From: an uncultured Draconibacterium sp.
Lineage (GTDB): Bacteria > Bacteroidota > Bacteroidia > Bacteroidales > Prolixibacteraceae
Direction of reading: 5' to 3'
DNA length: 64,000 nt
Assembly: GCF_963677155.1 (NCBI RefSeq)
Contig: NZ_OY781884.1
Coordinates: forward strand, 2,434,134-2,498,133
The position numbers and the translations under genes were made by a program. Position 1 is the first letter of the stretch. The number at the start of each line of letters is the position of its first letter. The notes beneath the pieces are model-generated. The model saw nothing but the letters and a program-made list of their open reading frames with translations, had not been told where the DNA came from and ran no database searches. Of this stretch, positions 1 through 13,369 are shown piece by piece.

Positions 1-531
1 ATGGCAGGATTTGGAACCAATGCTTCGCTACTTCAGTCTATTTCGGTAGGAGCTACCAATTTGGTGTTCACTTTCGTGGCACTTTTCCTTATCGATAAAT
101 ACGGGCGAAGAACACTCCTTATGGCCGGATCAGTTGGGATGGTCATTTTCCTGGGTCTGCTTTCAAAGTCATTTTTTACCAATAACTACTCCGATTTTGG
201 CGGTTACGGAGTAATGATCTATCTGATGGGATTCATTGCCTTTTTTGCCTTCTCTCAGGGAGCTGTGCTTTGGGTAGTAATTTCAGAGATATTCCCCAAC
301 AAAGTACGCTCAAAGGGGCAGGCGCTGGGAAGTTTTACCCACTGGATTTTTGCCGCAGCTCTTATCTGGGGATTCCCGGTATTGAACAACACCGTCGGTG
401 GCGGTATCTCCTTTGGCTTCTTCGCGGCAATGATGGTGCTGCACTTTTTCTTTGCCTGGAAAGTATTACCCGAAACGAAAGGTAAGTCGCTGGAGGAAAT
501 TCAACAGGAAATGAAAAAACGAATCAAATAA
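1..531 (+). CDS. Sugar/H+ symporter, MFS sugar-porter family (C-terminal part, cut by window edge)
   Basis: This is the C-terminal 176 residues of an inner-membrane sugar porter, probably a fructose importer. Family signatures are visible: DKYGRR after the eighth helix (about residues 32-37), EIFPNKVRSKG after the tenth helix, and PETKGKSLEEI at the C-terminus. About five hydrophobic helices remain. Family members are about 450-500 residues, so the reading frame almost certainly continues upstream. The ATG at base 1 aligns with an internal methionine before helix 7 and is unlikely to be the start. The fructokinase begins 12 bases after the stop, which fits an import-and-phosphorylate pair for fructose released by the GH32 enzyme downstream. 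The substrate is inferred from context only. Confidence 0.9.
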   Translation: MAGFGTNASLLQSISVGATNLVFTFVALFLIDKYGRRTLLMAGSVGMVIFLGLLSKSFFTNNYSDFGGYGVMIYLMGFIAFFAFSQGAVLWVVISEIFPNKVRSKGQALGSFTHWIFAAALIWGFPVLNNTVGGGISFGFFAAMMVLHFFFAWKVLPETKGKSLEEIQQEMKKRIK

Positions 532-543
532 TACTAAACAGAC

Positions 544-1476
544 ATGGAAATTAAGAACAACGAAATATTGTGCTTTGGCGAGGTGCTTTGGGACCGTTTG
601 CCATCGGGCGCGAAAGCCGGAGGTGCCCCCATGAACGTGGCGCTTCACCTCAGTGCGATCGGTTTGGATGCTACCATTGCCAGCAGTGTAGGAAACGATG
701 AACCGGGAGCAGAGCTAAAAAAATTCCTTGAAGATTCGGGAATGTCTACCTCATACATTCAAACCGACGATAATTTGCCTACCAGTGAAGTATTGGTGCA
801 TTTGGATGATAACAACAACGCGACCTACGAAATTTGTGAACCCGTGGCCTGGGATAATATTCAACTAAATGAATCGCTTATGAAAAAAGCAAAACAGGCT
901 GGTTTGCTGATTTACGGATCACTGGCGTCGCGTAATCCTTTAACCCGCGAAACACTGATGAATTTGTTGGATTACGATGGCGTGAAATTGATTGATGTAA
1001 ATTTTCGTAAGCCATATGATTCGCGAGAAGTAGTTGAAAAGCTTTTGGAAAAAACGGATATCGTAAAACTCAACGACGAAGAATTGGAGGTTTTTGCAGG
1101 TTGGTACAACCGCCCTGATTCTGATGGGCGCAGCCTTATAGAATGGTTTGTAAAACATTATAACATTAAAATGTTGTGTGTAACCAAAGGCGAAAAAGGA
1201 GCTTTGTTGTACTGCAATGGAAAATTCTACGAACACCCCGGATTTAAAGTAAATGCTGTTGATACCGTTGGTGCCGGCGACGCATTTCTTGCCGGACTAA
1301 TTGCTTCACTGTTAAATGAAAAAGAACCTGCCGAAGCGCTGGCTTTTGCCTGTGCTACCGGAGCATTTGTGGCATCGAAAGCCGGTGCTACTCCAAAATA
1401 CGACATGGATGAAATTGAGGGAATCCTATCGAATGACCAACCAACTATCGAAAGAAATAATATTCAAATTAATTAA
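544..1476 (+). CDS. Fructokinase, PfkB/ribokinase family
   Basis: A 310-residue cytoplasmic sugar kinase that would convert imported fructose to a fructose phosphate using ATP. The N-terminus has the PfkB opening (FGEVLWDRLPSG followed by GGAPMNVALHLSAIG). The C-terminal PfkB signature DTVGAGDAFLAG lies at about residues 240-251, with D246 as the expected catalytic base and an adjacent glycine-rich anion hole. Length is normal for the family. It sits between the sugar porter and a SusC/SusD pair and is likely cotranscribed with them. Fructose as the substrate follows from the GH32 genes of the locus and the fructokinase-like N-terminus; other hexoses cannot be excluded from sequence alone. 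Confidence 0.9.
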   Translation: MEIKNNEILCFGEVLWDRLPSGAKAGGAPMNVALHLSAIGLDATIASSVGNDEPGAELKKFLEDSGMSTSYIQTDDNLPTSEVLVHLDDNNNATYEICEPVAWDNIQLNESLMKKAKQAGLLIYGSLASRNPLTRETLMNLLDYDGVKLIDVNFRKPYDSREVVEKLLEKTDIVKLNDEELEVFAGWYNRPDSDGRSLIEWFVKHYNIKMLCVTKGEKGALLYCNGKFYEHPGFKVNAVDTVGAGDAFLAGLIASLLNEKEPAEALAFACATGAFVASKAGATPKYDMDEIEGILSNDQPTIERNNIQIN

Positions 1477-1488
1477 ACTAATCTGATT

Positions 1489-4400
1489 ATGGTTAAAAGA
1501 ATCAAACTTAAAAATGCGACTAAGGGAATGTTTTTCATTCTGCTTAGTTTGTTTTCAACAATCGCATTTGCCCAGGAAATTTCGGTTTCGGGTACTGTGA
1601 AAGACGCCTCGGGCATGGCATTGCCAGGTGTAACAATTGTTGAAAAAGGAACAACAAACGGTACCATTACCGATGTTGATGGTGTTTACACTATCGATGT
1701 AGCGGGTGCCGATGCAGTGCTGCAGATTTCTTTTATTGGAATGAAATCACAGGAAATAGCAGTATCAGGCAGAACATCTATTAATATTAGCATGGAGGAC
1801 GAAACCATCGGTTTGGCAGAAGTTGTAGCCGTTGGTTATAGCGTTCAGCGAAAAGCCGATTTAACCGGTGCGGTTGAAGTGGTAGAAATGGACGCAATTG
1901 AAAATGTAAGTTTAAGTTCGGGTAACCCCATGCAGGCTTTGCAGGGCCATGTTCCGGGACTTTATATTGAAAAAACCGGTACTCCCAGTGCAACCAGCAG
2001 TCGAATTCTTATTCGTGGAGTAAATACGCTTGGAGATAACAACCCATTGTATATCATCGATGGAGTACCAACCAAAAGACCAGAGGTGTTTCAGGGACTG
2101 AGCGCCGGTTCAATTGTTTCGGTGCAGGTATTGAAAGATGCGTCAGCTTCTTCAATTTATGGAGCACGTGCATCAAACGGTGTTGTAATTGTTACCACCA
2201 AAAACGGGTCGGATAAAAAAGGTGAAGTTAGAGTAGAATTTAACTCTAACTTTTCGGTTCAAAGCGAAAAATCGCAACGATATGATATGCTGAATGCTGT
2301 TGATCGTGGCCGGGCTTTGTGGCAGGCATCGGTAAACGACGGTGTTGATCCAACAAGCGGATACGGCGAAATTTACAACTTCGACTGGAATGGTGATTAT
2401 AATAATCCTGTTCTGAATGGCGTAAGCGTTCAGCCATATGTTGGTGGAGATACGAACGTTCCTGCGGGCGATACCGATTGGCAGGATGCAACTTATGAAA
2501 CTGGTTTTGTAATCAATAACGACCTGACTGTTTCCGGCGGAACTGAAAAGTCTTCGGTATTAATGAATATTGGTTACATTAAAAATACCGGTATGCTGAA
2601 ATATACCAACTACGATCGTATTACGGCCCGTATCAATGGGCAAACCAGCATGCTGGATAATAGAGTGAAGTTTGGTATCAATGCACAGGTTGTATCGTCG
2701 AACGAAACATTGGAAACTCCCGACCTTGGTAGTGCTCCAACGCCTGGCCTGGCAATTACTTTGGCTCCAACAATTCCGTTGTACGATTTAAACGGCAATT
2801 ATGGAGGACCACTAGGATCAGGTTATTCCGACCGGAATAACCCGGTAATGATGCAGTATATTAACCGTTGGGACAATACCAATCGCAGGTATTTATTTGG
2901 CAGTGTATTTGCTGAAATTCAGCCGGTAAAGAATCTTGTACTGCGCACAACGCTCGGAATTGACTACTCGATGGTGAAAGACAAAGATATTGAACCTGCT
3001 TTTAGCAATGGTTTTATTGCACGTTCAGTAAATAACTTAAGAATTTACAATAGCGACTTCACTAGTGTAACATGGTCGAACACTGCTAATTACAAGCTTG
3101 ATATTGGTAAAAGTAAATTTGGATTCCTTTTCGGTATTGAAGCGGTGAGCGATAATTTTCAGGATTTCACCGGATATAAAGAAGGATTTTCTTCGCAAAC
3201 TGAAGAGTTTTTTGTGTTGAGCGCCGGAACCAGTAACGGAAATAGTTTTGGAACAGCAACAAGCAGCCGTTTATTCTCTCAGTTCGGAAAAATCGATTAC
3301 AACTACAACGAACGTTTTCTGGCGTCGTTCACACTACGTCGCGATGGTTCATCGCGATTCGGAGCCGATAACCGTTACGGTTTCTTCCCTGCTGCTACCT
3401 TCGGATGGCGGTTGAGCGAGGAGGAGTTTATGAGAGGAATGGAAAAAATTTCAAATCTTAAATTTCGTGCCGGTGTTGGTCGTGTTGGTAACCAGGATGT
3501 TGGTGATTTTGCCAGTCTTGGATTATTTGAACCTCGTTACGGAGCTGTGGCCAGCCAGGTTGATGGTATATTCCACAACGACTTTTTTGATGACTACTGG
3601 AATGTTGGTTCAGCTTATGCTTTAGATGGTCAGGATTCAGGAAATCTGCCTTCGGGTTTTGTGTCAGTACAAGCCGGAAACCCTGCCTTGAGATGGGAAA
3701 CAACAGATGAATTGAACCTGGGTATCGATTTCGGATTTTTCGATAGTAAGTTGGTTGGAGCATTCGATTGGTATACACGTAAAACAACCGATATTTTGAT
3801 TCAGCCACCGGTAGCTTCGGCTTTAGGTGAGGGCCAACTACAGTTCCTGAATGGAGCAACCAAGAAAAACACAGGTTGGGAATTTGCGTTGAGCTACAGA
3901 AAAAAAGTGAACAGCGACTTATCATACGAAATTGCAGGTAGTGCCAGCCACTTTGCCGATAAAATCACTGAACTTCCTGAAGAAGTTAGAACAGCTTATC
4001 CTGGTAACTCGGAGCAAACAGTTCTTGGTCATTCAGAGCTTTCGATTTTTGGTTATGTAGCTGACGGTATTTTTAAAAATCAGGGAGAAGTTGATGCACA
4101 TGCCAGTCAGGTTGGTGCTGCCCCGGGGCGTATCCGCTGGGCTGATTTGAATGATGATGGTGCAATTAACTCACTCGACCAGAAATTCCTTGGAACACTG
4201 CTTCCTAAACTAGAGTATAGTTTAAGAATTGATGTGAATTACAAAAATTTTGATTTGTCTGTTTTTGGATCGGGAGTTGCCGGAAAAACCGGTTATGATC
4301 CTTATACTTACTATAACGATTTTATTCGTGGTCGCGATAACGTAGGACCTGGTGTTTTCAAAGCCTGGACTACGCAAAATCCGGATTCAGATGTTCCTGC

Positions 4401-4677
4401 ATTAACATTGTCGGATAGCAATAACGAAACACGTACTTCCAGTTATTTGAACGTAAACGCGTCTTATTTCAAATTGCGTAACATCCAGCTTGGTTACTCG
4501 TTGCCAAAAACTGTATTGGATAAAGTTGGCATAGACAAGGTTCGCTTTTACCTGATGGCCGAAAACCTGTTTTGGATTCAAAGCAATGAATTTCAGGGAC
4601 CGGATCCGGAACGTACCGATGTAAATACCATCCCGATTCCAAGGACTTTCTCTGCCGGTGTTAATGTTGCATTCTAA
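1489..4677 (+). CDS. SusC-like TonB-dependent outer-membrane transporter (fructan locus)
   Basis: A 1062-residue outer-membrane beta-barrel transporter that imports oligosaccharides using TonB energy. It begins with a signal peptide ending near SLFSTIAFAQ. Next comes a carboxypeptidase-regulatory-like beta-sandwich (about residues 30-115; GTTNGTITDVDGVYTI), then a TonB box/plug region (EVVAVGYSVQRKADLTGAV) and a barrel running to the terminal phenylalanine. There is no N-terminal STN domain, so it does not look like a partner of an ECF sigma factor. It starts 12 bases after the fructokinase and precedes the SusD gene by 20 bases. Substrate is inferred to be fructo-oligosaccharides from the GH32 neighbours. 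Confidence 0.95.
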   Translation: MVKRIKLKNATKGMFFILLSLFSTIAFAQEISVSGTVKDASGMALPGVTIVEKGTTNGTITDVDGVYTIDVAGADAVLQISFIGMKSQEIAVSGRTSINISMEDETIGLAEVVAVGYSVQRKADLTGAVEVVEMDAIENVSLSSGNPMQALQGHVPGLYIEKTGTPSATSSRILIRGVNTLGDNNPLYIIDGVPTKRPEVFQGLSAGSIVSVQVLKDASASSIYGARASNGVVIVTTKNGSDKKGEVRVEFNSNFSVQSEKSQRYDMLNAVDRGRALWQASVNDGVDPTSGYGEIYNFDWNGDYNNPVLNGVSVQPYVGGDTNVPAGDTDWQDATYETGFVINNDLTVSGGTEKSSVLMNIGYIKNTGMLKYTNYDRITARINGQTSMLDNRVKFGINAQVVSSNETLETPDLGSAPTPGLAITLAPTIPLYDLNGNYGGPLGSGYSDRNNPVMMQYINRWDNTNRRYLFGSVFAEIQPVKNLVLRTTLGIDYSMVKDKDIEPAFSNGFIARSVNNLRIYNSDFTSVTWSNTANYKLDIGKSKFGFLFGIEAVSDNFQDFTGYKEGFSSQTEEFFVLSAGTSNGNSFGTATSSRLFSQFGKIDYNYNERFLASFTLRRDGSSRFGADNRYGFFPAATFGWRLSEEEFMRGMEKISNLKFRAGVGRVGNQDVGDFASLGLFEPRYGAVASQVDGIFHNDFFDDYWNVGSAYALDGQDSGNLPSGFVSVQAGNPALRWETTDELNLGIDFGFFDSKLVGAFDWYTRKTTDILIQPPVASALGEGQLQFLNGATKKNTGWEFALSYRKKVNSDLSYEIAGSASHFADKITELPEEVRTAYPGNSEQTVLGHSELSIFGYVADGIFKNQGEVDAHASQVGAAPGRIRWADLNDDGAINSLDQKFLGTLLPKLEYSLRIDVNYKNFDLSVFGSGVAGKTGYDPYTYYNDFIRGRDNVGPGVFKAWTTQNPDSDVPALTLSDSNNETRTSSYLNVNASYFKLRNIQLGYSLPKTVLDKVGIDKVRFYLMAENLFWIQSNEFQGPDPERTDVNTIPIPRTFSAGVNVAF

Positions 4678-4697: not shown

Positions 4698-6440
4698 ATG
4701 AAAATGAAAAATATTAAAATAGTTATAGTTGCGCTGATAAGCCTTTTGGCTGTCTCGTGCGATAATTATCTGGAAACTGAGCCGCAAGGGTTCATTTCAG
4801 CCGGAAGCCCAACGGCCGAAGGCGCTGAAGGTTTAGTTACCGCGGCTTACGCCGGAATTGGAAACAACGATATGATTGGCCCTATAGCAAGTATGTGGGT
4901 TTATGGTAGTGTGCGCTCTGATGATGCTTACAAAGGAGGCGGTGGTGTTTCCGATGTTGAGCCTTACAACTTTTACGAGCAATATAACCTTACTCAACCA
5001 TTCCAGAGTTGGTTGGCCGGTTTGCCTTATACCTGGGAAAATTATTACCGTGCTATTTCGCGTGCCAACTCGGCATTGCGCACCTTGAATGAGTTGACCG
5101 ACGAAGAATTTGCGCTGCGTCAGACAAGGATTGCTGAAGCACGTTTCCTGAGAGGACATTCGCATTTTATGTTGAAAGTGTTGTTCAAATATGTTCCTTA
5201 TATCGATGAAAGCAAGAGCAACGAAGAGATTCTTCAAACGTCAAACCGCGAATATTCAAACGATGAATTGTGGAACAAAATCGCTGAAGACTTTGAATTT
5301 GCGATGAATAATCTTCCAGAATCACAATCGCAGGTAGGTAGAGCCAATAAATATGCTGCTGCCGCTTACCTTGCAAAACTGAGATTATACCAGGCTTACG
5401 AGCAAGATGAAAACAACCAGGTGGTAAACATTAACCAAAGCCGTATGCAGGAAGTTGTTAACCTGTGCGAAATGGTTATTGCATCCGGACAGTATAGTTT
5501 ACAGGCTGATTTTGGTGAAAACTTTATGGGTGGTTACGATAATGGCCCTGAATCGGTTTTTGCTATTCAGTTTTCAATTAGCGACGGAACAACATCAGGA
5601 CGTTTGAACTTCGAGAATGGACTGAACTACCCACACGGAGCTCCACAATACGGTTGTTGCGGTTTCCATCAGCCAAGCCAGAATATGGTGAATGCTTTTG
5701 CTACCGATGAGAATGGTTTACCAAAGTTCGATTCGTTTAACGATGTTGAACTGAGTGCAGCAGATATTACTCCTGATGGTGTAACTGTTGATCCGCGTAT
5801 CGATCACTCCATTGGTATCGATGGTCACCCGTATAAATACCGTAACGAGGAATCCTATATTTTCAGCAACAGCTGGGTACGAGATCCGGGTGTTTACGGT
5901 TACTTCCAAAGTATGAAAGAACAGCAGGCTGCCGATTGTTCCTGCTACAAAAAGCAAGGGCCGTTTATGGGTGTATCAAAAAACATCGATATCATTCGTT
6001 ATGCCGATGTATTGTTAATGCAGGCTGAAGCTTATATCGAGCTGGGACAGCAGGATATGGCCCGTCCGCTGATTAATCAGGTTCGTAATCGTGCCTCTGA
6101 AAGTACCAGCAGAACTCGTTTAGCCGATGGTACTGCTCCATCAAATTATATGATTTCGGAATACGATGGAACGAATTTAGCCTGGACACAGGATAACGCA
6201 CGCAAAGCTTTACAGTGGGAGCGTCGTTTGGAGTTTGCTTTGGAAAGCCCTCGCTTTTTCGACCTGGTACGTTGGGGAATTGCAGAACCAACTTTGAATG
6301 CATACCTAGAGAAAGAGAAAACAAGAAAAGATTTCCTGAATGATGCGCAATTTACTGCCGGAAGAGACGAGTATTTTCCGATTCCGCAGCGTGAGATAGA
6401 CTTTACAAAAGGTTTGTACGAACAAAATGTTGGGTATTAA
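4698..6440 (+). CDS. SusD-like surface glycan-binding lipoprotein (fructan locus)
   Basis: A 580-residue RagB/SusD-family lipoprotein that caps the preceding SusC barrel and captures glycan. The signal peptide ends in a lipobox with the lipidated cysteine at C21 (LLAVSC), followed by DNYLETEPQG, typical of SusD N-termini. The C-terminal SusD region includes RYADVLLMQAEAYIELG, RKALQWERRLEFALE and FPIPQREI, all familiar family motifs. A strong hairpin follows the stop codon directly and may limit read-through into the two GH32-type genes. Confidence 0.95.
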   Translation: MKMKNIKIVIVALISLLAVSCDNYLETEPQGFISAGSPTAEGAEGLVTAAYAGIGNNDMIGPIASMWVYGSVRSDDAYKGGGGVSDVEPYNFYEQYNLTQPFQSWLAGLPYTWENYYRAISRANSALRTLNELTDEEFALRQTRIAEARFLRGHSHFMLKVLFKYVPYIDESKSNEEILQTSNREYSNDELWNKIAEDFEFAMNNLPESQSQVGRANKYAAAAYLAKLRLYQAYEQDENNQVVNINQSRMQEVVNLCEMVIASGQYSLQADFGENFMGGYDNGPESVFAIQFSISDGTTSGRLNFENGLNYPHGAPQYGCCGFHQPSQNMVNAFATDENGLPKFDSFNDVELSAADITPDGVTVDPRIDHSIGIDGHPYKYRNEESYIFSNSWVRDPGVYGYFQSMKEQQAADCSCYKKQGPFMGVSKNIDIIRYADVLLMQAEAYIELGQQDMARPLINQVRNRASESTSRTRLADGTAPSNYMISEYDGTNLAWTQDNARKALQWERRLEFALESPRFFDLVRWGIAEPTLNAYLEKEKTRKDFLNDAQFTAGRDEYFPIPQREIDFTKGLYEQNVGY

Positions 6441-6451
6441 TATATAGATGA

Positions 6452-6488
6452 AGATCATGGCTGGGAGTCACCCTTCCGGCCATGATCT
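6452..6488 (+). terminator. Hairpin after susD (attenuator or terminator)
   Basis: A perfect 10-bp stem is formed by AGATCATGGC (6452-6461) and GCCATGATCT (6479-6488), with a 17-nt loop and GTTTT directly after. It lies 11 bases past the SusD stop and about 35 bases before the GH32-like gene. It could end part of the transcripts or protect the upstream mRNA end, giving more SusC/SusD than enzyme. Confidence 0.7.
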
Positions 6489-6522: not shown

Positions 6523-7992
6523 ATGAAAAGTCCGGTTCCTGTTTTATTGCTGATTTTGGTTGTTTTCTGGGGATGTACAGAAAATAAAAAAGAGGAAGCT
6601 GCTGTTTCCCTGCATTTTAATCCGGTAGATTCAATGCTTCAGAATCCGATAGCTTTAATTTATGCCGAAAACAGTTATCACTTGTTTTTCAATTCCACGG
6701 TTGACGGTGAAGAGAAGTTTGGCAAGGCTGAAAGCAATGACTTGTTAAACTGGAGCAATAAATCAATAAGTATTGAGTCGGAAGAAGCCGGAATTCAGGA
6801 TATTAAAACCATCGTAGCAGATTGGAATCAAACCACTGATTACAGTGCAGAAGCGTCTGCTTTGATTGCTTTCGGAACAGTTGCTGAGAATTATGGAGAA
6901 CTTACAATCTCATACAGCAACGACAATGGATATTCATGGAAACAAGACATAGAAAACACCATTACACTCGCTGATTTTAACGCCTCCATTCAGGATCTAA
7001 AAGTGTTTTGGCACGATGAAACACAGGCCTGGATACTGCTAACACTTTCTGGTTATGAAGTGCGTTTTTATTCATCTGCAGATTTAAAAAACTGGGAGTA
7101 TTTAAGTCGTTTTGGCGATGATGTTGCGCTGAAATCTGGATCGTGGACAAGCATCGATTTTTTCCCGATGGAAATTACGGAAACCAACGAAACGAATTGG
7201 GTGCTTTTTATCAGTGCCGATAGCGGTTCGCCTAACGAAGGCAGCGGTGTTCAGTATTTTGTTGGCAGTTTTGATGGCTTTGTTTACCAGGCGTCGCACA
7301 ATAAACCCAAATGGATTGATCATGGAAGCGATCTTTACCAGGCTGTAGTTTTATCCGATTACCGGCTCGTCAACAAAAAGCCTGTTTTAATAGGAACTTT
7401 ATACAATTTCATCTACGAAAAATTCAATATCTCAAATAATTCCTCAACCGAATTCTCGCTTGCCCGCCAACTAGCCTTGAAAGAAAGATTTTACGATTAT
7501 TATTTATTTTCAGAACCGGTAGCCATTAAGAAATTTGCAACAGAAACAATTAACGAAACAGAATTAGCCGATGGTAAATCAATCGAAAAGAACCTGAATT
7601 TGCCAATCCGAATCGAATTGACTTTCGATGTCAATAGCCGTTTATACCTCGGTATGGCGGAATCATTTGGCGTTACTATCACAACAAAGGAAGACAAGGA
7701 GCTGATCCTGGGTTATCAGGCTGAGCGAAGATATTTTTACATAGCTGACCCCTCAATACAGCGCGATTTTCCCGATAGTTGGGATGGTTTCTATTATGCA
7801 CCTTATGTAACCAACGAGCCAGAACTGGATATGACACTTATTATCGACAGGAACTCGGCCGAATTATTTGCTATGAACGGACTGATTTCCCTGTCGCGAA
7901 AGTTTTCGTTTAGCGAAGAATCGGTTCAGGTAAGCTTATTTAGAGAGACAGGAACCGTTAAGTTATTGAAAGGAACAATTACTGAATTCTAG
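6523..7992 (+). CDS. GH32-like surface lipoprotein, predicted non-catalytic (pseudo-fructanase)
   Basis: A 489-residue lipoprotein (lipobox cysteine C18, FWGC) with the five-bladed propeller plus beta-sandwich layout of GH32. It aligns with the neighbouring intact enzyme through YHLFF, LKNWEYLSRFG and GSGVQYFVGSFDG. Two catalytic carboxylates are gone. The nucleophile motif NDPNG has become QNPIA (N41 in place of Asp), and the acid/base pair EC has become TS (T209-S210). The RDP motif has become QDL, keeping only its aspartate (D158). Part of the first blade, which contains the substrate loop before HWGHA in the active paralogue, is also deleted. The reading frame is intact, so the protein is probably kept for a binding role. 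It occupies the position where fructan loci usually carry a surface glycan-binding protein. Confidence 0.85.
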   Translation: MKSPVPVLLLILVVFWGCTENKKEEAAVSLHFNPVDSMLQNPIALIYAENSYHLFFNSTVDGEEKFGKAESNDLLNWSNKSISIESEEAGIQDIKTIVADWNQTTDYSAEASALIAFGTVAENYGELTISYSNDNGYSWKQDIENTITLADFNASIQDLKVFWHDETQAWILLTLSGYEVRFYSSADLKNWEYLSRFGDDVALKSGSWTSIDFFPMEITETNETNWVLFISADSGSPNEGSGVQYFVGSFDGFVYQASHNKPKWIDHGSDLYQAVVLSDYRLVNKKPVLIGTLYNFIYEKFNISNNSSTEFSLARQLALKERFYDYYLFSEPVAIKKFATETINETELADGKSIEKNLNLPIRIELTFDVNSRLYLGMAESFGVTITTKEDKELILGYQAERRYFYIADPSIQRDFPDSWDGFYYAPYVTNEPELDMTLIIDRNSAELFAMNGLISLSRKFSFSEESVQVSLFRETGTVKLLKGTITEF

Positions 7993-8031: not shown

Positions 8032-9612
8032 ATGAACCACAAGTATTTCAATTTTATGGCTGCAATAGTACTACTGTTTGCCGTGGCCTGTTCTTCCGGT
8101 ACGAAAAAAAGTGCTGAGAACGAAAACATAACAAAACCATACATTGAAAAGTATCGTCCGCAATTCCATTTCTCTCCGGATTCGGCATGGATGAACGACC
8201 CAAACGGAATGGTTTATTACGAAGGAGAATATCACCTTTTCTATCAATATTATCCTGATAGTACGGTTTGGGGTCCCATGCATTGGGGACATGCAATTAG
8301 CACCGATTTGGTACATTGGCAACACTTGCCCATTGCTTTGTATCCCGACAGTTTGGGGTATATTTTTTCCGGTAGTGCTGTTGTTGACTGGAACAATACC
8401 ACTGGATTTGGTTCGGCTGAAAATCCACCGTTGATAGCAATTTTCACCTATCACAATCCTGAAATTGCAAAGGATGGTGGTGTTGATGTGGAATCGCAAG
8501 CTATTGCCTACAGTTTGGATAAAGGACGAAGTTGGACAAAATATGAAGGGAATCCGGTTATTCCAAACGATGGAAACCGCGATTTCCGTGATCCGAATGT
8601 AATTTGGAATGAAGAGATTCAAAAATGGAATCTTGTACTGTCAGCACACGATCATGTTCAGATTTATACTTCCGATAATTTGAAAAACTGGAAACACGAA
8701 AGCGATTTTGGTATTGATGCCGGAACACACGATGGTGTTTGGGAGTGTCCCGATTTATTCCCGCTGCAGGTTGAAGGAACCGACGAAACAAAATGGGTAT
8801 TAATCGTGAATACCAATCCGGGTGGACCAAATGGAGGTTCCGGAACACAATATTTTTTGGGTGACTTTGATGGACACCGGTTTACTGCCGACTCAAAAGA
8901 AACCAGTTGGCTGGATTGGGGACGCGATAATTACGCCGGTGTAACATGGTCTGATATTCCAAAAGAAGACGGTAGACGGATTTTCCTGGGCTGGATGAGT
9001 AACTGGGCATATGCACAGGTTGTACCGACTGAGAAATGGCGCAGTGCAATGACTTTACCCCGTACGCTTTCCCTGATTAAAAAGGAGGATCAATATGTGC
9101 TGAAATCGACTCCGGTTAAAGAAACAGAGCTGTTAACGAGTAATTCAACCTCTATTAATATAGATGAGGCGTTGAAAATCTCTGGAGTTAAAGAATTGGA
9201 TATACAGGAACTAACCTTGAATCAAAGTCGCTTATCTCTGGAATTTGAAATGGGAGAAACATTGCCTGAATCATTTGGAATTCTGCTTGAAAATGAATTG
9301 GGTGAAAATATTACATTCAGCTATTCTGCATCGGCAAAGCAGTTTCAGTTTGATAGAACACAATCGGGAGACCTGAGTTTTTCAGATCAATTTTCCGGAA
9401 TCTCGGTTGCTCCGTACAAAATAGGATCGACTGTAGATCTTGAAATATTTGTGGATGCGGCATCTGCTGAAATTTTTGTAGATGGAGGAGATTTGGTAAT
9501 GACAGAGATCTTTTTTTATTCTCAACCTTTTAGCAAGCTGAAAGTTTTTGCCGACGGACAAGCACTTACTTTGATGAACGCGAAGTTTACGGGAATAAGT
9601 AGCATTTGGTAA
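8032..9612 (+). CDS. GH32 fructanase (levanase/inulinase type), lipoprotein
   Basis: A 526-residue GH32 hydrolase predicted to sit on the outer membrane through C20 (lipobox VAC). All three catalytic motifs are intact: WMNDPNG with nucleophile D56, FRDP with D187, and WECPD with acid/base E238. The C-terminal beta-sandwich of GH32 follows from about residue 360. It would release fructose or fructo-oligosaccharides from levan or inulin for the SusC/SusD pair and the downstream porter and kinase. Sequence alone does not separate endo- from exo-action or beta-2,6 from beta-2,1 specificity. It is the last + strand gene of the locus and runs into a convergent terminator. Confidence 0.95.
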   Translation: MNHKYFNFMAAIVLLFAVACSSGTKKSAENENITKPYIEKYRPQFHFSPDSAWMNDPNGMVYYEGEYHLFYQYYPDSTVWGPMHWGHAISTDLVHWQHLPIALYPDSLGYIFSGSAVVDWNNTTGFGSAENPPLIAIFTYHNPEIAKDGGVDVESQAIAYSLDKGRSWTKYEGNPVIPNDGNRDFRDPNVIWNEEIQKWNLVLSAHDHVQIYTSDNLKNWKHESDFGIDAGTHDGVWECPDLFPLQVEGTDETKWVLIVNTNPGGPNGGSGTQYFLGDFDGHRFTADSKETSWLDWGRDNYAGVTWSDIPKEDGRRIFLGWMSNWAYAQVVPTEKWRSAMTLPRTLSLIKKEDQYVLKSTPVKETELLTSNSTSINIDEALKISGVKELDIQELTLNQSRLSLEFEMGETLPESFGILLENELGENITFSYSASAKQFQFDRTQSGDLSFSDQFSGISVAPYKIGSTVDLEIFVDAASAEIFVDGGDLVMTEIFFYSQPFSKLKVFADGQALTLMNAKFTGISSIW

Positions 9613-9704
9613 AGTTACCCAATAAAAAAAAGTGTTGCATTGATATACAAATTTATTTGTTATCGTTCAAAAGCAGTTTGGGGAAATAGGGGGGAGAACA
9701 CAAC

Positions 9705-9739
9705 AAAAGCCTGATATTCAAAATGAGTATCAGGCTTTT
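9705..9739. terminator. Bidirectional terminator between convergent genes
   Basis: Left arm AAAAGCCTGATA (9705-9716) pairs with TATCAGGCTTTT (9728-9739), a 12-bp perfect stem with an 11-nt loop and A/T tails on both sides. It lies between the convergent GH32 and esterase genes and can serve both. Confidence 0.8.
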
Positions 9740-9764
9740 ATTTGTTTCGTACTTTATATCCGTT

Positions 9765-10604
9765 TTATTTTTCCTTCGCCTTCTCAAAAAAGTGATGAAA
9801 GAATACGCTTTGAAAAGCAATTGAATTTTCCCAATATTCCCAGGTATGTCCACCGGGTCTTGTGGTGAAATCATGTGGAATATTTCGGTCGAGAAGTTTC
9901 TCATGCAAGTCGCAATTAACGCCGTAAAAGAAATCGCTTACGCCACAATCAATTGATATTTGAAGCGACCCGGGCGTTAGCTTATAAACGAGATTAATAA
10001 CGCTGTTTTCTTCCCAATTCTCTTTATTTTCCGCATAAGTGCCAAGTCTTTTCGAAAGGTCCCAGTTATTGGGGAACGGACGAATATCAACACCGCCACT
10101 CATGCTTCCTGCTGCGCCATAAACATCCTGGTTTCTGAATGCAAGATACAAAGCGCCGTGTCCTCCCATGCTTAATCCGGTAATGCCTCGTCCTTCGCGC
10201 GATGCAATGGTGCTAAAGGAGTCGTCTACCCAGTCAACCAATTCATGCGCAACATAGGTTTCGTATTTTATGTTTTCATCAATAGGGCTATCAAAATACC
10301 AGCTCGAAAAAGCGCCATCAGGGCAAACGACAATAAACTGATACAAATCGGCATAGTTTTTAATTTCGGGCACGCTGTTTATCCAATCGTTTTGATTGCC
10401 ACTATAACCGTGTAGCAGATAAAGAACCGGATATGAATTGTTTTCAGAATAACCTTCCGGCGTAATAACAACTGCCTCTATGTCTTTATCCATTGACGGA
10501 CTGTGAGTAGTTAAGTGTTGAACTCTGGCTGCATTAGTTTGTAGCACCAGGCCGGTAATCACAACCAGTAACATGATTGCTTTAAGAAAAAGTGTTCTTT
10601 TCAT
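9765..10604 (-). CDS. Secreted esterase, FrmB/EstA-like (esterase D family)
   Basis: A 279-residue alpha/beta hydrolase with an N-terminal signal peptide (MKRTLFLKAIMLLVVITGLV) and no lipobox, so probably periplasmic. The nucleophile elbow GLSMGG places Ser at S145; D224 (CGVSDFF) and H253 (PGGHTW) complete a plausible triad. LLHGYSGNQNDW supplies the oxyanion loop. The family includes acyl esterases and carbohydrate esterases such as acetyl- and feruloyl-xylan esterases. The substrate cannot be read from sequence. It is a single-gene unit convergent with the fructan locus and divergent from the cobalamin operon. Confidence 0.85.
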   Translation of the reverse strand: MKRTLFLKAIMLLVVITGLVLQTNAARVQHLTTHSPSMDKDIEAVVITPEGYSENNSYPVLYLLHGYSGNQNDWINSVPEIKNYADLYQFIVVCPDGAFSSWYFDSPIDENIKYETYVAHELVDWVDDSFSTIASREGRGITGLSMGGHGALYLAFRNQDVYGAAGSMSGGVDIRPFPNNWDLSKRLGTYAENKENWEENSVINLVYKLTPGSLQISIDCGVSDFFYGVNCDLHEKLLDRNIPHDFTTRPGGHTWEYWENSIAFQSVFFHHFFEKAKEK

Positions 10605-10840: not shown

Positions 10841-10870
10841 TTGCTACATAAAATAAATTATCTACTTTCG
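10841..10870 (+). promoter_or_regulatory. Predicted promoter of the cobalamin operon
   Basis: A Bacteroidota-type promoter: TTG at 10841-10843 as the -33 element, 19 bp of spacer, then TACTTTCG at 10863-10870, one base off the TAnnTTTG -7 consensus. Transcription would begin near 10876-10880, just at the 5' edge of the riboswitch, which supports the assignment. Confidence 0.6.
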
Positions 10871-10879
10871 CGGCAGTAA

Positions 10880-11070
10880 TGGTTCTTTAATTGTACGTTA
10901 GTACGATTACGATTAAAAGGGAATGCAGTGAAAATCTGCAACAGTTCCCGCTGCTGTAAGTCTGGTTTCGAGTTCTCGGAATCGCGGTTTTTAAACTACA
11001 GCCACTGTCTTGATTATTTTCAAGATGGGAAGGCATAAAAACCAGGATAAGTCAGAAGACCTGCCATTAT
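10880..11070 (+). ncRNA. Cobalamin riboswitch (B12-element)
   Basis: The conserved segments of a cobalamin riboswitch appear in order: AAAAGGGAATGCAGTG, CAACAGTTCCCGCTGCTGTA, the B12 box with GCCACTG near 11001, ATGGGAAGGC, and AGGATAAGTCAGAAGACCTG near the 3' end. It sits in the 5' leader of the TonB-receptor gene, about 120 bases before its ATG. Adenosyl- or other cobalamin binding should lower expression of the downstream operon. The edges are approximate. Confidence 0.93.
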
Positions 11071-11191
11071 AAATTTTAACATTTTGCTTCCGGGAAAGAA
11101 GTTTGTGTTTTGGACAGTTATTCTATTGTTCGCACATTATCTTTAGTTTACGGAATTGCAAGGTGAAATTATTAATTATTAATATTTTACG

Positions 11192-13369
11192 ATGCAAAAG
11201 ATTCTTTTAGCAGTTGTAGTACTGCTTTTTTCGGCAGTTTTTGCCAATGCGCAAAACGTTGTACTCAAAGGTGTGGTAACTCAAAAAAACAACCAACAAC
11301 CTTTGCCTGGTGCCAACGTTTATTTTTCTGGTACAACAACAGGTACCGCAACCAACAACAAAGGCGAGTTCCAGATTAAGCGTCTTGTTCCCGGTACTTA
11401 CGATTTGGTAATTTCCTTTTCAGGTTTTAAACGCATTAAGAAAACCATTACACTTAAAGCGGGTGAAAATGCCATGAATTTTGAAATGGAAGAGTCGAAC
11501 AACAACCTTGGCGAAGTTGTGGTAACAGGTACGGGTACCCGCCATCATCTGAAAACAGCTCCTGTTCCAACCGAGCTGATAAGTAAAAAAGCAATTATGA
11601 GCACCGGTGCTTCTGACTTTAACGAATTGATGTCGAATATCAGTCCTTCTTTCGATTTCTCTCCGGGAACTATGGGCTCGTTTATGACCATTAATGGTTT
11701 AAGTAACGATTTCATTCTGGTTTTAGTTGATGGCAAACGCATGTATGGAGACGTTGGCGGTCATACCGACCTAAACCGTATTAATCCTGACGACATTGAA
11801 CGTATTGAAGTGCTGAAAGGTGCAGCTTCTTTGCTTTATGGTTCAGATGCAATTGCTGGTGTGATAAATATTATTACCAAAAAATCGAAACAGACATTGA
11901 ATATTACCAACACAACACGTGTTCGGAAATATGCAACAATTCAACAAAGCAACACAGTTGATTTAAATTTGGGCAAATTTTCGTGGAACGGAAGTTTTAA
12001 CCGCAAAAGCAGTGATGGTTGGCAAAATAGTGCATACGAACTCGATGAAGATAAATTGGTTGAAACCGAGGCTATGACACAGAATAAATACAAAGACCAT
12101 ACATTTAGCCATGTTTTAACATTCCGTGCTACCGATAAATTGGAATTTTATGCCGGAAATTCGGTTTACGAGAAAGATGTTTTCAGACCTGAATCTGTTG
12201 GAAAATATGGTTATTACTACGATGATAAAGCTTTTGATGCTGGTGCTAAATTCTTAATAAACAAAAAAGATTTTATCTCTCTGGATTACAACTACGACAA
12301 ATTCCGTTATTATTATAAATACAATCAAGAATCAGGTGATTATGTAAATGGCGATAAGTCGATTAACAACGACCAGCGTATGAATAATACGCGATTGAAG
12401 TATGTAAATACAATTTCTGAAAATAATATATTAACCGTTGGTGTCGATTATCTTCAGGAAAAAATGGTATCGGAAGACCGTTTGGTTGGTGGCGAAGCTG
12501 AAGCTAATACGGTTGCTTTGTATGCTCAGGATGAAATAACATTTTTTAAAAATTTAGATGTTGTTGCAGGAGTAAGAGCGGTGAAGCATAAGGAGTTTGG
12601 TAGTGCTTTCACTCCTAAAGTTTCGTTATTATATAAATTAAGCAATTTTAATTTCCGTGGAACATACGGACATGGTTTTAAGGCTCCAACATTGAAAGAA
12701 TTATACTACGCATATGAAAAGCGTGGTACTTTGTACATGGGTAATGAAGATCTTGATCCGCAAAAATCACGTTTTTATTCGGCCGGAATCGAGTATAATA
12801 ATAAATTTTTATCGGCAAGTATTACAGGGTATGTAAACAATGTTGAGGACTTAATTTCATATCAAACTGTTAATTTGCAAGATGGCGATACTGATAATGG
12901 AATTAAGAAGCGTCGACAACACTACAATGTTGAAGATTCACGTTCGGAGGGTTTCGATATTCTTGTAAATGCAAAATTGGGAGCCGGCTTCACGCTTGGA
13001 GGAGGCTATAGTTATGTTGATGCCACTGACGAAACCAACAACGAGCGTTTGGAAGGTGTGGCTAAAAACTATGGAAATGTGCGTTTCTCGTACAATCACT
13101 CATGGAAAGGATATAAGTTGAATGCCAATATTATTGGACGTTTTCAGGACGATAAATTTTATGACGATGACGACGCAAAAGGCTACGACATTTGGAAGCT
13201 TACAACCAACCATCGCTTTGCAAATATTGGTGTGTTTATTTTGGAAGCTCAGCTGGGCATCGACAATATTTTCGATTATGTTGACGATAGTCCTTATGGT
13301 TCGCACTATGGAACAATTAACCCTGGGCGTACTTTCTTTGCAGGTTTAACAATTAATTTTGCACAATAA
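11192..13369 (+). CDS. TonB-dependent outer-membrane receptor for corrinoids or a related metal chelate
   Basis: A 725-residue TonB-dependent receptor, shorter than the SusC type and closer to BtuB/haem-receptor size. It has a signal peptide (ending FANAQ), a carboxypeptidase-regulatory-like domain (about residues 22-105), the plug start EVVVTGTGTRHHLKTAPV, the plug core IEVLKGAASLLYGSDAIAGVINII, and a barrel ending in FAQ. Control by the cobalamin riboswitch makes a corrinoid the most likely ligand. The following PepSY and chelatase genes also resemble haem-uptake operons, so a metal-tetrapyrrole ligand other than cobalamin is possible. Confidence 0.9.
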   Translation: MQKILLAVVVLLFSAVFANAQNVVLKGVVTQKNNQQPLPGANVYFSGTTTGTATNNKGEFQIKRLVPGTYDLVISFSGFKRIKKTITLKAGENAMNFEMEESNNNLGEVVVTGTGTRHHLKTAPVPTELISKKAIMSTGASDFNELMSNISPSFDFSPGTMGSFMTINGLSNDFILVLVDGKRMYGDVGGHTDLNRINPDDIERIEVLKGAASLLYGSDAIAGVINIITKKSKQTLNITNTTRVRKYATIQQSNTVDLNLGKFSWNGSFNRKSSDGWQNSAYELDEDKLVETEAMTQNKYKDHTFSHVLTFRATDKLEFYAGNSVYEKDVFRPESVGKYGYYYDDKAFDAGAKFLINKKDFISLDYNYDKFRYYYKYNQESGDYVNGDKSINNDQRMNNTRLKYVNTISENNILTVGVDYLQEKMVSEDRLVGGEAEANTVALYAQDEITFFKNLDVVAGVRAVKHKEFGSAFTPKVSLLYKLSNFNFRGTYGHGFKAPTLKELYYAYEKRGTLYMGNEDLDPQKSRFYSAGIEYNNKFLSASITGYVNNVEDLISYQTVNLQDGDTDNGIKKRRQHYNVEDSRSEGFDILVNAKLGAGFTLGGGYSYVDATDETNNERLEGVAKNYGNVRFSYNHSWKGYKLNANIIGRFQDDKFYDDDDAKGYDIWKLTTNHRFANIGVFILEAQLGIDNIFDYVDDSPYGSHYGTINPGRTFFAGLTINFAQ

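Follow-up and report, generated by a model that had tools for sequence, protein, structure and literature searches.

The window, a 64,000-nucleotide stretch of DNA from an uncultured Draconibacterium sp. of the family Prolixibacteraceae, opens with a run of genes that all lie on the plus strand, in the order MFS transporter, sugar kinase, SusC, SusD, a GH32 protein altered at its catalytic residues (below, the dead GH32) and an active GH32, the last two separated by 39 nt. The features are:

1..531, plus strand: MFS sugar transporter, C-terminal part (447 aa as a whole, with its start upstream of the window)
544..1476, plus strand: PfkB-family sugar kinase, fructokinase-like
1489..4677, plus strand: SusC/RagA TonB-dependent transporter
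4698..6440, plus strand: SusD lipoprotein, of the SusD clade (74-100% identical) that carries the dead GH32
6452..6488, plus strand: terminator-like hairpin and T-rich stretch in the gap between susD and the dead GH32 gene
6523..7992, plus strand: GH32 pseudoenzyme, a lipoprotein of 489 aa with N41 at the nucleophile position, T209 at the acid/base position and D158 as the RDP Asp
8032..9612, plus strand: partner GH32 lipoprotein, 526 aa, with NDPNG, FRDP and WECPD intact
9705..9739, plus strand: terminator-like hairpin after the partner GH32, the likely operon end

Upstream of the window lies a divergent gene for an HTCS with a Peripla_BP_4 sensor (G000:C1:2430267-2433053, equivalent to L191:6268-9054, minus strand), and the locus thereby combines SusC, SusD, GH32, sugar kinase, sugar transporter and HTCS, the set that characterizes a fructose-type PUL. 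The domain layout of this HTCS, with its periplasmic-binding sensor, is presumably the same as that of BT1754. According to PMC11501099, BT1754 is the fructose-sensing HTCS of the Bacteroides thetaiotaomicron fructan locus. Directly downstream of the active GH32, the stretch 9612-9765 holds no GH36 gene and an esterase gene lies on the opposite strand instead; in congeners (L040, L041, L046-L048), a GH36 alpha-galactosidase gene occupies this place. Farther on, a cobalamin riboswitch at 10863-11082 precedes a gene at 11192 that is labelled outer-membrane receptor-like from its translation.

The altered GH32 protein

The frame at 6523-7992 runs through 489 codons without interruption and carries the lipobox FWGC with Cys18, in agreement with the original prediction of an intact, lipidated frame. 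Its product matches Pfam GH32N at 111.6 bits and GH32C at 43.2 bits, both above the cut-off, and only GH32 domains were found by Pfam, with no DUF4960 domain; the propeller and the sandwich of the GH32 fold family are therefore both present. The adjacent enzyme scores 327.6 and 75.7 bits for the same two domains and is 31% identical to the dead GH32 over 494 columns. In the alignment of the two, WMNDPNG of the enzyme becomes MLQNPIA, FRDPNV becomes IQDLKV and WECPD becomes WTSID, which changes the nucleophile from D to N and the acid/base from E to T. The earlier claims that both catalytic residues are gone and that the neighbour at 8032-9612 keeps all three motifs are thus confirmed, and the window protein lacks the Asp nucleophile and Glu acid/base of a GH32 enzyme. 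The RDP motif, previously read as QDL, has indeed lost its Arg and Pro, but the Asp that serves as transition-state stabiliser persists as D158. From these substitutions, we infer that the protein probably no longer cuts.

A predicted model of moderate confidence (AlphaFold, pLDDT 74.4, pTM 0.78) finds its best Foldseek match in the exo-inulinase 1Y4W (TM 0.78 by query length), while the best phmmer match of the sequence is 8I12. The two-domain architecture is common to the dead GH32, these exo-inulinases/fructosidases and the adjacent enzyme; the dead GH32 differs from all of them in the replacement of nucleophile and acid/base and in the release of conserved propeller positions. A GH32 fold without activity also occurs in plant defective invertases and other GH pseudoenzymes, which to our knowledge are not bacterial SusCD-locus lipoproteins. 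As described in PMC6560043 and PMC7618045, the endo-levanase GHlev (BT1760) is likewise a propeller-and-sandwich GH32 lipoprotein encoded in a SusCD locus, but it is active and located at the cell surface; BT1760 is not among the 36 PDB sequence matches of the dead-family profile (E up to 0.01). A search of titles and abstract openings, with subscription journals mostly outside its scope, returned no case in which a binding protein of a PUL was described as a dead GH32.

A single-origin clade tied to one SusCD transporter clade

Twenty-two distinct loci with a dead GH32 came out of searches at three levels (140 family genomes, 295 order genomes and 395 phylum genomes) and one GTDB contig scan. 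This number is a lower bound, given that 35 stretches were fetched after a family search that had matches in 118 genomes. The original prediction had proposed looking for GH32 homologues without both carboxylates beside susCD, and such homologues evidently exist. The hosts comprise 20 genomes of the window's family, G152 from another family of the same order, and Carboxylicivirga linearis (Marinilabiliaceae); named hosts include Draconibacterium sediminis, D. mangrovi, D. orientale and Mangrovibacterium lignilyticum. The nucleophile column holds Asp in none of the 22 loci and Glu in one (L053), the acid/base column holds Glu in none and Asp in two (L062, L063), and the RDP Asp is retained in 17. 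A one-off mutation is rejected by the recurrence of the same loss across the set. All three motifs are present in 19/19 tabulated partner enzymes. Among 29 further phylum loci that were read, the dead pattern was not seen, RDP and WEC being present in 29/29 and the Asp nucleophile in 28/29; the phylum profile search itself had matches in 59/395 genomes at E up to 1e-60. In one protein from G552 (L126:1426-2955), NNPNG stands for NDPNG and the other motifs are intact, possibly an isolated nucleophile substitution, possibly an error in sequencing.

In every one of the 22 loci, the first same-strand frame of at least 200 aa beyond susD encodes the dead GH32; the gap is 495 nt long in L052 and reaches 1107 nt in L054. 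The susD frame of L049 stops early; this gene of G106 is apparently split between frames (L049:10884-11209), as is the susC of the L040 MAG (L040:3971-7159), and each split may be real or an assembly error. The active partner is less regular: L053 has no adjacent active GH32, with an intact one about 4 kb on, L055 has a GH36 gene between the dead and the active GH32, L067 has a partner from a different GH32 lineage, and L107 has no adjacent active GH32 and only a short GH32 frame nearby. That second GH32 of G152 (L107:1960-2976) has a TGA reported within the match. A GH36 alpha-galactosidase was found in 10 of 21 dead-GH32 loci (three confirmed by Pfam) and is absent from the window.

The dead proteins form a monophyletic clade with branch support 100/98 in a careful IQ-TREE analysis of 67 rows, which included 19 of the 22 dead proteins (the close copies L039, L044 and L046 were omitted); a quick tree of 60 rows gave the clade a support of 99. 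L092 has a very long branch and its placement is unsure. The enzyme at 8032-9612 falls in another GH32 clade, apart from the dead proteins, which argues against local duplication: a recent tandem duplication of this gene is ruled out by the tree, and the earlier notion that a GH32 had been duplicated here gives way to an old clade of the dead proteins' own. The SusDs of the dead-GH32 loci, 74-100% identical to that of the window, also form one clade (22 rows against 31 others, SH-aLRT 99, in a quick tree in which L082 and L109 among the other rows are one genome). An old clade of single origin is thus tied to one SusCD transporter clade. The Carboxylicivirga linearis locus (L042), from another family, has a dead GH32 and a SusD of 86% identity and groups within the Prolixibacteraceae portion of the tree, a placement that suggests locus transfer. 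A second GH32 lineage (L064:8564-10123, L065:12029-13588, L066:9259-10818) retains the Asp (WTSDAIG) and the Glu (WEY) and has lost RDP (CKYPRL); within a DUF4960 locus, it is flanked on either side by an intact GH32.

In pairwise comparison with the window copy, dN/dS comes to 0.118-0.222 across nine pairs for the dead gene, 0.066-0.141 for the partner enzyme (nine) and 0.020-0.041 for susD (eight, the ninth being saturated). In the propeller, the dead gene reaches 0.094-0.189 and the enzyme 0.027-0.057; in the sandwich, the ranges are 0.082-0.149 (eight comparisons) and 0.071-0.180, respectively. As judged from these coding sequences, the dead gene is under purifying selection that is relaxed mainly in the catalytic propeller. 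A decaying pseudogene or an annotation accident, which the lost catalytic motifs and a dN/dS above that of the neighbours could suggest, is hardly credible, since the frame is open in 22 loci, the clade is old and the dN/dS values indicate a gene that is not decaying; both selection and conservation contradict this candidate, and it is rejected. The pseudoenzyme is genuine, of old origin and maintained.

Conservation has been redistributed between the two domains. Among positions conserved at 95% or more in 20 enzymes but at less than 60% in 16 core dead proteins (57 in total), the propeller accounts for 51 and the sandwich for 3, whereas 59 positions conserved in the core dead proteins and differing from the enzymes are divided between propeller (29) and sandwich (27), an enrichment of dead-specific positions in the sandwich (p 0.005). 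The sandwich is more conserved than the propeller in dead relatives at about 50-85% identity, while the propeller was the more conserved domain in each of 18 enzyme comparisons; at either end of the range, in the nearest and in the most remote dead relatives, the two domains do not clearly differ in identity. Sandwich candidates in the 16 core members are R373, Y375, R402-Y404, W420, F423 and Y425, and the dead-specific sandwich residues are mostly not retained in the outer members L062, L063, L067 and L092. It is conceivable, but on balance doubtful, that this clade of GH32 pseudoenzymes is a fixed non-catalytic part of one SusCD lineage in which recognition of a sugar or partner has shifted from the pocket to a newly conserved beta-sandwich surface.

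Hairpins, neighbouring loci and membrane side

The hairpin at 6452-6488 has a 16-bp stem and a T-rich tail and resembles a terminator. Across ten copies from the genus Draconibacterium, 94% of cells are paired and 4/16 pairs change on both sides, counts that are inflated by relatedness; no Rfam family matches the hairpin at gathering scores. Hairpin strength was taken from the best 45-nt window in the interval that starts where the first gene ends and closes 30 nt inside the second. On this measure, the gap between susD and the dead GH32 ranges from -18.7 to -27.6 kcal/mol in 21/21 loci (L049 omitted for its early susD end; the long gaps of L052 and L054 offer more windows), and the gap after the dead GH32 from -0.3 to -10.2 in 20 loci, of which none reaches -17. 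The gap between susD and DUF4960, in contrast, ranges from 0 to -11.4 kcal/mol in 19 loci, none of which reaches -17 (L076 and L077 omitted for overlapping genes; many gaps are short), and the gap after DUF4960 reaches -17 in 11/20 loci (several of them close relatives) and not in 9/20. Other susD gaps, measured inside the gap only, span 0 to -22.4 in nine loci. In these sequences, the hairpin tends to sit where transporter genes give way to enzyme genes, and it may attenuate transcription. A strong hairpin before the dead gene and none before DUF4960 genes place the dead GH32, by gene layout, on the enzyme side.

These layouts bear on the suggestion that the dead GH32 stands in the place of a surface glycan-binding protein (SGBP). 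BT1761, the SGBPlev of B. thetaiotaomicron, is presumably a DUF4960 protein. In PMC7618045, BT1761 of the levan utilisome is, like the dead GH32, a lipoprotein whose gene follows susD in a locus of the fructose type; its fold differs, and sister DUF4960 genes follow susD without a hairpin. The dead GH32 does not show the BT1761-like layout of a gene joined to susD without a hairpin, and with strong hairpins in 21/21 gaps before dead genes and 0/19 before DUF4960 genes, its equation with the SGBP place is not upheld.

Loci whose SusD is 38-51% identical to that of the window usually have DUF4960 after susD (21/22 tested frames match DUF4960 proteins, L061 being the exception, and four are confirmed by Pfam), with GH32 directly after susD in L108, L109 and L113. 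Five genomes of four other families have SusDs at 55-68% identity; in these, an active GH32 follows susD in L150, L151 and L152, a BT1760-like GH32 with its triad in L154, and a BT1760-like GH32 and DUF4960 in L153. Separately, L106 (SusD 59%) has an active GH32 after a 957-nt gap. Some relatives (for example G066, G043, G061 and G067) hold a DUF4960 locus beside the dead-GH32 locus.

In Bacteroidota, surface lipoproteins carry acidic residues after the lipidated Cys, as stated in PMC5080379. Net acidity at +2 to +8 averages -0.41 in the 22 dead GH32s versus 2.19 in 26 SusDs from the genome of the window (p 8e-8; of 30 SusD loci, 4 without a lipobox were dropped, and SusD matches number 36 in this genome), and -1.28 in 18 partner enzymes (the L062 enzyme was dropped, its lipobox not being found). 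The dead GH32 of the window is itself borderline, with three acidic and two basic residues, and the acidic rule was derived outside this genus. OmpA-domain proteins, taken as a control for periplasmic lipoproteins, have a lipobox in only 1/6. The N-terminal sequence of the dead GH32 thus leans against a surface location without settling the side.

Possible roles of the pseudoenzyme

That the catalytic pair was lost and the gene long maintained next to one importer speaks for a role in binding, holding or partnering. The favoured reading, to which we assign a probability of roughly 0.42, is that the dead GH32 would be a non-catalytic, fructoside-holding lipoprotein of the import path, on the enzyme side and more likely periplasmic, its lipoprotein N-terminus making a periplasm-facing position likelier than one outside. 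SusCD would import a sucrose/raffinose-type sugar or short fructo-oligosaccharide, the pseudoenzyme would hold or hand on this sugar near the outer membrane, and the active GH32 would then cut it. The putative contact surface may belong to the beta-sandwich more than to the former pocket, and the gene of the pseudoenzyme would be grouped with those of the GH32 and, in many cases, GH36 enzymes, downstream of a transcript hairpin. The GH36 genes suggest that the substrate may be of the sucrose/raffinose type and make a fructan polymer, as originally proposed, uncertain. The idea of a GH32 turned receptor survives in part: catalytic residues are lost and the gene is kept beside susCD, but it is no local duplicate and the SGBP place lacks support. 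Most of the affinity of GHlev comes from its active site, according to PMC7618045; with most of the conserved pocket motifs lost in the dead GH32, sugar binding may have been lost altogether.

It is somewhat unlikely that the protein acts as an SGBP that captures fructan on the outer face beside SusCD and replaces the DUF4960/BT1761 type. Its place as the next sizeable gene after susD and its tie to one SusCD clade fit such a role, as does the absence of DUF4960 from 21/21 dead-GH32 loci (in fetched stretches of up to 20 kb) and from the window's genome, and in PMC7618045, GHlev, an active GH32, is described as docking on SusC, with a secondary site for the chain that runs towards its sandwich domain. 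However, a hairpin precedes the dead GH32 gene while DUF4960 genes come before a hairpin or have none, the acidic signature present in SusDs and in 9/12 DUF4960 proteins (at least two acidic residues between +2 and +7) is missing from the N-terminus of the dead GH32, GH36 genes point to oligosaccharides, and L150-L152 (SusD 59-68% identical) have neither DUF4960 nor a dead GH32 in the stretches read. A heterodimer in which the pseudoenzyme regulates, stabilises or anchors the active GH32 is unlikely: the active gene comes next in most loci, no hairpin separates the two and both lipoprotein N-termini are non-acidic, but the missing, displaced or other-lineage partners of L053, L055, L067 and L107 argue against a fixed enzyme partner and indicate that the tie is to the import system. 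Continued activity through another carboxylate pair or other chemistry is very unlikely. The frequently retained RDP Asp, Asp266 and Asp270, which are invariant across a 16-row alignment, and a new Glu239 in 15/16 core dead proteins would suit it, yet position 239 is S, S, C and Q in the four outer members, no new carboxylate common to the whole clade was seen in the alignment of core and outer members, and many conserved enzyme positions have been released.

The hairpin position suggests a simple genomic mark to tell the genes that go with the transporter from those that go with the enzymes, drawn from a modest number of loci of which some are close relatives. The sister loci, with DUF4960 or with neither protein, offer a comparison. 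Because Pfam labels the dead proteins as GH32 enzymes, fructan and sucrose capacity can be over-counted in such genomes. The clade provides a natural case in which a GH32 branch lost its catalytic pair once and then stayed beside the same transporter lineage.
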